Shown here: in pieces, positions 43,502 to 46,123 of the stretch | Numbering within the stretch: the stretch's first letter is position 1 | Layout: each line of letters opens with the position of its first letter | Origin: Maribellus sediminis | GTDB taxonomy: Bacteria; Bacteroidota; Bacteroidia; Bacteroidales; Prolixibacteraceae | Assembly: GCF_011799805.1 (NCBI RefSeq) | Contig: NZ_WXUB01000002.1 | Coordinates: 1,240,001-1,304,000, forward strand | Length of the DNA stretch: 64,000 nt | Reading direction: 5' to 3' | The notes under the pieces: generated by a model | The model's database searches: none | Seen by the model: only the letters and a program-made list of their open reading frames with translations | Told to the model about the DNA's origin: nothing | Position numbers and translations under genes: made by a program

Positions 43502-44596
43502 ATGAAATATTTACTACTTACATTAATAAGCTTTAGTTGCGCAATTTCAAGCTTCTCCCAAAATTGTTTCATTGAAGATACAACAGTAGTGCCTGATCTT
43601 AAAAGCGGAACAAATTATTTCGTTCCAGGAAGTCCTTTAAAATGTATAAGAGTCATTGTTCACTTCATACAAAAAGATGACGGAACGGGCAACTTTAACG
43701 AGAATGATGACGGGTTAACACCTTCAAATAACTTCAGTGGATATGACTTTGCGAAATACATTTTAAATTATGCAAATAATTTGCTAGATAACAATCAAGA
43801 AATGAGATTACAACCCTTCGGGCTTGTTCCGGTTTATGATCCTGGATACCGATATAAGCTATCTGGTGTATTTTTTTGGAGAAACACCACCTTATATAAT
43901 GATTATGGGGCATTAAACTGTCTACAAGCGAGTTATGGACAAAGTACAAACGATACCATAAACATATTTATTACAAGTCTTCATGGAAATACAGGGGGCT
44001 ATGTAAGGTACATTGGAGATAACGCAGTTCTTCTATTTAAACCATATACAAATTACATTGCAAGCGTTAACAACAACAACAATTGGTATAACAGAGCATC
44101 TGCCATAGTCATAAATCATGAGGTAGGACATTGTCTAAACCTATATCATACCTTAATGACTAATAGTGGAACATGTAAAGCCAGTTGGGATGATTTCTGT
44201 GATGACACACCAAGTATACAACAAATGCTGGACATTAATGAACCAAGTCCATGCTGTTGGAATGACGTACATTGCTCAAATAATTTAATGGACTATAACG
44301 CTGATCAACAAAGCATTACACCTGATCAACTCGAACATATTCATTCAGCACTCAACATCGAAAAGTTAAATTTTTGTGAATGTAATTATTATACAACAAC
44401 ACTAAATATTAATAGTTTTAACAATAGCTCTGGAACGTATGTCGCAAAAAACATCATAGTTTCTGGTTCATCAGCAGTTGTGAAAACCGGAAAAACAGTT
44501 TATCTTGAATCTGACGGAATAACTTTCAACACCGGTTTTGAAGTTCAAGCAGGAGGCAAACTGAATGTTCTCGTAAATTCTGATTGTAATCAATAA
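43502..44596 (+). CDS. secreted M43-like zinc metalloprotease with 3-coathanger stack
   Basis: 364 residues from the ATG at 43502 (MKYLLLTLISFSC), signal peptide to about residue 20. The metzincin zinc motif is H206-E-V-G-H210 with the third ligand H216, and a Met-turn at M263 (NNLMDYNADQQSITPDQL), the pattern of pappalysin-like M43 proteases. The C-terminal ~65 residues form the Bacteroidota 3-coathanger stack pattern (YVAKNIIVSGSSAVVKTGK ... GFEVQAGGKLN). No T9SS sorting domain is present, unlike its two pseudogene neighbours. It lies 4 bp after the frameshifted gene, on the same strand. Confidence 0.85.
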   Translation: MKYLLLTLISFSCAISSFSQNCFIEDTTVVPDLKSGTNYFVPGSPLKCIRVIVHFIQKDDGTGNFNENDDGLTPSNNFSGYDFAKYILNYANNLLDNNQEMRLQPFGLVPVYDPGYRYKLSGVFFWRNTTLYNDYGALNCLQASYGQSTNDTINIFITSLHGNTGGYVRYIGDNAVLLFKPYTNYIASVNNNNNWYNRASAIVINHEVGHCLNLYHTLMTNSGTCKASWDDFCDDTPSIQQMLDINEPSPCCWNDVHCSNNLMDYNADQQSITPDQLEHIHSALNIEKLNFCECNYYTTTLNINSFNNSSGTYVAKNIIVSGSSAVVKTGKTVYLESDGITFNTGFEVQAGGKLNVLVNSDCNQ

Positions 44597-44626
44597 AACT
44601 ATTTAACAAGATTTATGTTCAGGCCA

Positions 44627-44681
44627 AGGCCTTGAAGCTTTTTCACATGGCAATCCCTTCAGGAGAAAACCTTCAAGGCCT
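44627..44681 (+). terminator. long inverted repeat after the metalloprotease gene
   Basis: AGGCCTTGAAG (44627-44637) and CTTCAAGGCCT (44671-44681) form a perfect 11-bp stem with a 33-nt loop. No T run follows, so it is a weak terminator candidate; it may be a folded RNA or a palindromic repeat. Confidence 0.4.
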
Positions 44682-44803
44682 ATTAATAGATTCAAATTCG
44701 AACACAAAAGCTACAGATTCGAAGAACTAAATTAGACTGACTATAAATTACCCTGATTTCAGTATTTTTAGTTTTCTGTCATTTCCAGATTTAATTTAAT
44801 ATA

Positions 44804-44811
44804 TAAATTTG
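44804..44811 (+). promoter_or_regulatory. -7 box of the rseC-like/rnf operon
   Basis: TAAATTTG matches TAnnTTTG. It lies only 28 bp before the preferred (non-standard) start of the rseC-like gene, so the leader is very short. Confidence 0.55.
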
Positions 44812-44839
44812 CCATCTCTAAATAGCAAAATTTACAGTT

Positions 44840-45256
44840 ACGGAATCAGAAATCAGACATAGGGGATTTGTAAAAGCGGTTAGCGACGACAAACTGATCG
44901 TTACAATCATCAGTCAATCAGCATGTTCATCGTGCCATGCACAGGGAGCCTGCTCCGTTTCCGATTTTCAGGACAAGGAAATCGAAATCAGCGAGTTTAA
45001 AGGGATCTATAAAGCAGGTCAGGAAGTAACCGTAATCTTCCGCGAATCGAAAGGATTTACAGCCTTGTTCTGGGGCTATATTCTTCCCTTTCTTATTGTA
45101 TTAATAACTCTGATCGTCACACTCGAAATCTCCGGGAACGAATTAAAGGCCGGACTGCTGTCGCTGGGAGTGCTTATACCATACTATACAACATTATATT
45201 TTTTACGGCATCATTTAAAAAAAATATTCAAATTCGAAGTTGAAGAAACTATTTAA
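44840..45256 (+). CDS. RseC/MucC (SoxR-reducing) family protein, no usual start codon
   Basis: The frame is open from 44822 (after TAA 44819-44821) to 45256. It encodes the RseC pattern: GFVKAVSDDKLIVTI, the Cys cluster CSSCHAQGAC, KAGQEVTVIFRESKG, and two membrane segments (FWGYILPFLIVLITLIVTL; LLSLGVLIPYYTTLYFL). No ATG, GTG or TTG lies before the Cys cluster; the first is a TTG at 45065, which would lose it. I place the start at an ACG (44840), where ATG to ACG would be a one-base change, giving 138 residues; ATA 44822 or ATC 44852 are alternatives. RseC-like genes commonly head rnf operons, as here. Confidence 0.65.
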   Translation, partial: TESEIRHRGFVKAVSDDKLIVTIISQSACSSCHAQGACSVSDFQDKEIEISEFKGIYKAGQEVTVIFRESKGFTALFWGYILPFLIVLITLIVTLEISGNELKAGLLSLGVLIPYYTTLYFLRHHLKKIFKFEVEETI

Positions 45257-45259
45257 CCA

Positions 45260-46123
45260 ATGAGTATTACCGTTATATATACCATTGTCACGCTGGTAGT
45301 AATTGGAGCAGCAGCAGCTGTAATCCTTTACTTTGTGGCACAGAAATTCAAAGTATATGAGGATCCGCGTATCGACGAGGTTGAAGGAGCACTTCCGGGT
45401 GCCAACTGCGGAGGATGCGGATTTGCCGGCTGCCGCGCATTTGCCGAAGCTTGCGTAGGTGCCAGCGAACTAAACGATTTAAACTGCCCGGTAGGCGGAA
45501 ACGACACCATGAGCGGTGTTGCGTCTATTTTAGGACTGGAAGCTGTTCAACAGGATCCGCGTATGGCCTTTATTCGCTGTAACGGAACCTGCGATCACCG
45601 GCCAAAAACCAGCTCTTTCGACGGAGCAGGAACCTGCGCTATTGCATCGTCTGTTTACAGTGGAGAATCGGATTGCCAGTATGGCTGTTTGGGTTACGGC
45701 GATTGTTTCGATGCCTGCGACTTCGACGCCATTGTAATGCATCCCGAAACAGGAATTCCGGAAATTATCGACGACAAATGTGTGGCTTGCGGCGCCTGTG
45801 TCGAGGCCTGTCCGAAAGACCTGATCGAGCTGCGCAAGAAAATGCCAAAGAACCGCAAAGTGGTGGTTGCTTGCCGCAATATGGATAAAGGCGGTGTGGC
45901 CAAAAAAGCCTGCGAAGTGGCCTGTATCGGTTGCAGCAAATGTTTCAAAGAATGTCCGTTTGATGCCATTACTATGGAAAACAACCTGGCTTACATCGAT
46001 TCGGACAAATGTAAACTGTGCCGCAAATGTGTGCCTGTTTGTCCGACAAACGCTATTCAGGAATTAAACTTCCCACCGCGTAAAGTAAAGCCGGCAGAAA
46101 AAGAAGAATGTACCACAACTTAA
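45260..46123 (+). CDS. rnfB: Rnf electron transport complex subunit B
   Basis: Iron-sulfur subunit that takes electrons from ferredoxin. 287 residues: an N-terminal membrane helix (about 6-26), the 4Fe4S domain with [17 protein letters not shown], and several ferredoxin-type motifs ([36 protein letters not shown]). It starts 3 bp after the rseC-like gene. With RnfCDGEA it makes a membrane ion pump coupling ferredoxin oxidation to NAD+ reduction. Confidence 0.96.

Follow-up and report, generated by a model that had tools for sequence, protein, structure and literature searches.

A conserved ACG codon seems to start rseC, the head gene of the Rnf operon, in the Draconibacterium group of marine Bacteroidota

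The rseC locus

The window (the whole stretch of 64,000 nucleotides analysed here, from a genome of 5.6 Mb) carries an rseC gene at the head of an energy-conserving rnf operon; all features of this locus lie on the forward strand. The rseC reading frame is delimited by the stop codons TAA at 44819-44821 and TAA at 45254-45256 and is open from 44822 to 45253. As stated in a first-pass annotation of this DNA, it contains no ATG, GTG or TTG before the TTG at 45065-45067, from which 63 aa are left, and mechanical ORF calling delivers this 63-aa ORF and nothing longer. If the frame is read from the ACG triplet at 44840-44842, the start codon that we propose, it encodes a protein of 138 aa (44840-45256, stop included).

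The 138-aa RseC matches the RseC_MucC profile PF04246 with an E value of 7.1e-25 and 87.9 bits (cut-off 24.4), residues 11-134 aligning to positions 1-126 of the 130 in the profile. The RseC/MucC family is characterised by two transmembrane helices and cytoplasmic termini, and the translated sequence shows two hydrophobic stretches. The CX2CX5C motif known for RseC (PMC11729352) is found as CSSCHAQGAC at 44924-44953, upstream of the TTG as the annotation had it, and the cysteine columns 29, 32 and 38 are kept in at least 33 of 34 loci of the genus. The 63-aa version reaches 31.2 bits with PF04246 and is without the cysteines of the cluster.

Three nucleotides after the rseC stop codon, the ATG of rnfB opens a frame (45260-46123) recognised by TIGR01944 (124.8 bits versus 68.7) and NF005504 (448.3 versus 437), and the frames that follow look like rnfC, D, G, E and A. 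In the 32 loci for which the rnfB start was checked (L001-L030, L055 and L056, out of 132), it is ATG in every case and lies 1-13 nt past the rseC stop. Upstream of rseC, TAAATTTG at 44804-44811 matches TAnnTTTG, the -7 promoter consensus of Bacteroidota. The box ends 28 nt before the ACG; the very short leader noted earlier occupies 44812-44839 and contains AAATAGCAAAA. Should transcription begin a few nucleotides after the box, about 22-25 nt of leader would be transcribed.

Start codons of rseC in relatives

An rseC homologue is present in 35 of 37 genomes of the same genus (g1, Draconibacterium; the window's own genome included); among the 127 genomes of the family that are at least 80 % complete, 92 have one. 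The start region was compared in 132 loci, 95 from the family and 37 from outside it, the latter picked by hand, for the most part as top matches, from the 318 outside-family genomes that gave a match. The start column was defined as the codon six codons before a conserved His (44858-44860 in the window). One genus locus with 37-38 % identity, its own ATG and a very long branch (L095) was excluded from the genus, leader and Fitch counts.

In the 34 genus loci, this column holds ACG in 31, TTG in two (L029 and L063), ACT in one (L059, with an ATG of its own two codons before the column) and ATG in none. This comparison of the codon in relatives, which the first-pass annotation had suggested as a check, favours the ACG at 44840. 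Three further genera each contribute one locus with ACG: the single loci of g22 and g10, and one of the four of g16. Over the 40 loci of g1, g10, g16 and g22 the column thus reads ACG in 34, TTG in two, and ACT, GCC, GTT and AAC in one each, counts that overstate the number of evolutionary events since the taxa are related and not independent. Where ACG is missing, TTG takes its place (two loci) or ATG or GTG stands one or two codons upstream (four loci); these codons would have replaced an earlier ACG if the changes ran in that direction. In g16, GTG stands one codon ahead of the column in each of the four loci (L055, L056, L066 and L068), the column itself being ACG in L055 and GCC, GTT and AAC in the other three.

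Outside this group ACG does not occur in the column (0 of the other 92 loci, L095 counted), and ATG does in 27 of the 92, comprising every locus of g2, g6, g7, g12, g15 and g21 and two of the four of g11. A standard start is lacking all the way from the upstream in-frame stop to the His in 27 of the 132 loci, and the column is ACG in all 27. When the search is confined to 4-12 codons before the His, 32 of 132 loci are without a standard start; 30 of them carry ACG, the exceptions being the outside-family loci L132 and L144, whose nearest ATG lies 16 and 27 codons before the His. The conservation of ACG in this column within the genus, with its presence in three further genera, is more than chance would give. 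Four of the 34 ACG taxa have their first standard start, a GTG or TTG, one to three codons ahead of an ACG that is kept all the same; in these, the ACG may no longer serve as the start.

The most prosaic explanation is that the true codon is ATG, misread or misassembled, or else that rseC is a broken gene in decay. A single C/T difference would indeed convert ACG to ATG, the codon of the six genera g2, g6, g7, g12, g15 and g21. However, relatives share the ACG (31 of 34 genus loci, complete genomes included, with no ATG among the 34), which makes the sequencing error that the annotation had put forward as an alternative untenable, and the conserved, full-length RseC protein speaks against decay. 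The chances of this explanation are close to nil.

Another possibility is that translation starts downstream, at TTG 45065 here and at an internal GTG or ATG in relatives, the frame before it being untranslated. A standard start does occur between the ACG and the third cysteine in 25 of the 34 ACG taxa, 18 of which have GTG at codon 14 or 21 as the first such codon, and in five taxa, the window among them, the first standard start lies past the third cysteine. The expected truncation by gene callers to 63 residues, with loss of the cysteines, therefore holds here, while elsewhere its extent depends on the species. Against a downstream start, Gly9 and Val11 are conserved ahead of these codons through four synonymous codons each, as expected of translated sequence, and at codon 21 the GTG gives way to GTA or GTT in 17 of 34. 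The TTG 45065 column varies too (among the 34 genus loci CTT 14, CTG 6, GTA 4, TTG 3 and further codons) and is thus not conserved as a start, so that we judge this TTG to be an internal Leu codon. Moreover, relatives with ATG nearly all start 5-10 codons before the His, and none of the compared relatives was seen to start after the cysteine cluster, the finding that the annotation had named as able to overturn its claim. A downstream start is extremely improbable.

Leader and initiation context

In all 40 loci of g1, g10, g16 and g22, a TAnnTTTG box precedes the start column by 25-30 nt, and the distances between box and column cover all three remainders modulo 3. Since they fall in all three frames, the leader is not coding. 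Counted from the ACG, A is found at -13, -12 and -11 in 33, 34 and 34 of the 34 ACG taxa, -3 is a purine in all 34 (G in 23, A in 11), and -6 is A in 24. In Flavobacterium johnsoniae, initiation is promoted by A-3, A-6, A-12 and A-13, as described in PMC6847099 and PMC8710568, and the conserved A positions and the -3 purine of rseC lie near these determinants. Nevertheless, with G commoner than A at -3 and A-6 in 24 of 34 taxa, the rseC context is not optimal. The rseC leader contains no GGAGGA-like sequence, and a stretch of 85 nt spanning the start has no better fold than its shuffles (z 0.66), the region being without strong structure. A search with Rfam at a lax threshold (44500-45400) returned one match, PYLIS_3 at 44733-44811, which with 22.8 bits, below the gathering score of 38, was taken as chance.

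These data bear on the proposal that translation begins within the leader, at ATA 44822 or a different near-start codon, the mRNA perhaps being almost leaderless. NCBI table 11 admits ATA as a start, infC begins with it in this genome, and ATA stands at the corresponding codon in 16 of the 34 ACG taxa. However, leader length varies by 1-2 nt from species to species, and an in-frame TAG occupies this place in several relatives; with the frame shifting in this way, ATA 44822 is no shared start. Before the His, ACG alone is a near-start codon in all 34 ACG taxa, the next best being ATT/ATC two codons before the His (near-start in 32 of 34), and L096 has TAA two codons before its ACG. We regard initiation within the leader as very unlikely, and the start of rseC is very probably the ACG at 44840 itself.

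Conservation of the ACG bases

Over the 34 ACG taxa, the ACG is free of Fitch changes at all its three bases, whereas 15 four-fold sites of rseC in the same taxa changed 7-16 times each (mean 10.6, on the gene's own tree). Changes confined to C/T amount to 4, 2 and 6 at three four-fold rseC columns over these taxa. Elsewhere in rseC, ACG accounts for 27 of 314 Thr codons (34 genus loci). In a Thr residue the third base would be free to drift and in a start codon it would not, which argues that the ACG is read as a start. With the A of ACG as 0, the positions -12, -11, +7, +13 and +17 are also invariant in the 34 ACG taxa, the last three being the second base of codon 3, the second base of codon 5 and the third base of codon 6; constraint at the level of single bases is thus not unique to the ACG. 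In the rseC protein tree, which was built on few columns and has many open forks, one clade (99/91) unites the ACG taxa with g11, with three of the five loci of g23 and with the remaining g16 loci.

The ACG start might be real and nevertheless be kept by chance or near-neutral drift, its weak initiation being of no value. Part of the conservation within the genus certainly reflects shared ancestry, and TTG in the column in two genus loci, with GTG, TTG or ATG nearby in others, indicates that some of these taxa tolerate stronger starts. On the other hand, ATG appears in the column in none of the 40 loci although other rseC sites have changed many times; if ATG were better or equally good, the single C-to-T transition should have occurred. 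Drift therefore seems unlikely to us. A genuine ACG start, retained by selection because initiation there is weak, is the likely explanation, and a start kept in this way suggests deliberately weak or regulated translation. The weakness of ACG in rseC is itself extrapolated from other bacteria.

Other genes and the initiator tRNA

How common such genes are was assessed by comparing 400 kb each of the host genome and of the complete, related genome G007, a scan covering the genes shared by both stretches and about 7 % of the genome. A first pass flagged 168 of 351 pairs and was swamped by shadow ORFs; once overlapping and shadowed frames had been removed, 144 orthologous pairs were left, and in four of these 12 or more conserved codons precede the first standard start. 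With 81 such codons, rseC is the sole convincing start-less gene among the 144 pairs, so that ACG starts are not common within the 7 % or so that was compared. Two other flagged genes were dismissed, as they have their own ATG with homology extending 13-15 codons into the leader, the partner's standard start lying at or within two codons of the stretch. The fourth flagged frame was set aside too, since about half of its aligned stretch runs antisense to the Bacteroidales small SRP RNA, which lies on the minus strand at L173:5074-5181 and whose antisense overlaps this seemingly start-less frame.

The pattern GGGYTCRTAACCC, the motif of the initiator-tRNA anticodon stem, occurs at one site of the genome, GGGCTCATAACCC, a stem-loop of initiator type with the anticodon CAU. 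An initiator tRNA altered to fit ACG was considered and rejected, since this single site carries CAU and there is no CGU version in the genome. We propose instead that the ordinary initiator tRNA (fMet, anticodon CAU) would read ACG 44840 through a mismatch at the middle base.

Another explanation is that the mRNA is edited from C to U, which would turn ACG into AUG. Plant organelle genes with ACG starts undergo such editing, and the process would explain a conserved ACG. However, bacteria are not known to have an established C-to-U mRNA editing system, and the feature is seen in rseC alone among the 144 gene pairs; editing has a minute probability.

Non-standard starts in other bacteria

As a start codon, ACG is exceedingly rare in bacteria. 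Very few non-standard start codons have been characterised in bacteria so far (PMC5472188). Among the matches listed in our search of the open-licence literature, the ACG starts are organelle, virus and yeast cases, and we found no bacterial gene that naturally begins with ACG. In a reconstruction of switches from 61,358 ancestral AUG starts, GUG was reached 363 times, UUG 113 times, CUG twice and AUU once, and the main text on these switches does not mention ACG (PMC5622118). PMC6397469 contains nothing on ACG. Initiation at CUG in E. coli is put at 0.86 % of that at AUG (as quoted in PMC11497404), and we found no comparable figure for ACG; an in vitro study of initiation factor 3 (IF3) did use acg model mRNAs (PMC8266586). 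The conserved ACG of rseC would lengthen this list, point to selection for a weak start, and offer a natural test system for start-codon discrimination in bacteria mostly devoid of Shine-Dalgarno sequences. It also matters for annotation: gene callers assume ATG, GTG or TTG, and correcting RseC would restore its cysteine cluster.

The closest parallel is sigR of Streptomyces coelicolor, which starts with GTC and is repressed by IF3; when it is given a standard start, SigR is overproduced relative to its partner (PMC5472188). Like sigR, which is co-transcribed with its neighbour, rseC is redox-linked and the first of a gene pair with a non-standard start; in sigR this start holds the product low relative to that of the neighbour. 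However, the GTC was shown by experiment while the ACG of rseC is known from comparison, and SigR is a sigma factor whereas RseC is a membrane protein. A second parallel is infC, whose start is ATT in E. coli and ATC in Streptomyces (PMC5472188), and which in the host genome starts with ATA behind GGAGGA. This is a second conserved non-standard chromosomal start, in the gene of the very factor that rejects such starts, and in E. coli the non-standard start of infC provides autoregulation of IF3; GGAGGA precedes infC here, but nothing of the kind precedes rseC. The sigR precedent and the ATA of infC make an IF3-sensitive, deliberately weak translation of rseC plausible, and as a working hypothesis rseC may be under IF3 control.

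Possible role of a weak rseC start

Weak initiation at the ACG would limit RseC relative to the product of the ATG-started rnfB behind it, and would probably place RseC under IF3, presumably to the benefit of the cell. The protein shares PF04246 and the CX2CX5C motif with RseC of Clostridium ljungdahlii and E. coli, and the linkage to rnf with the former; it differs in the ACG start, which among the 132 loci is confined to g1, g10, g16 and g22. In E. coli, the cysteines of the motif can hold an oxygen-sensitive Fe-S cluster, at least two of them are needed for the reduction of SoxR, and no interaction with the reducer proteins was seen for an RseC fragment that lacked the cysteine region (PMC11729352). 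According to the same source, extra RseC does no visible harm to E. coli, which weakens the idea that an excess would be toxic. In C. ljungdahlii, deletion of rseC abolished autotrophy and repressed the rnf genes (PMC9124969); with such a regulatory role, the dose of RseC would matter.

One may go further and suppose that the ACG has evolved into a control point at which the level of IF3 and the fidelity of initiation set the synthesis of RseC and, with it, the output of Rnf, either via the short junction to rnfB or because RseC has a regulatory function as in C. ljungdahlii. This extension is speculative and rather doubtful. If true, these bacteria would couple energy conservation to their translation capacity.

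The infC genes of the genus were inspected as well. ATA is present at the expected codon in 28 of the 30 loci examined (out of 36 matches in 35 genomes), with a standard start upstream in frame in none of the 30. In the host genome, infC is the locus L162 (G000:C6:520120-520626, minus strand). Across the genus its ATA stands behind GGAGGA, though the phylum is mostly without Shine-Dalgarno sequences. In L229 and L228 the automatic anchor was off by one or more codons, and an in-frame ATA is present there too.
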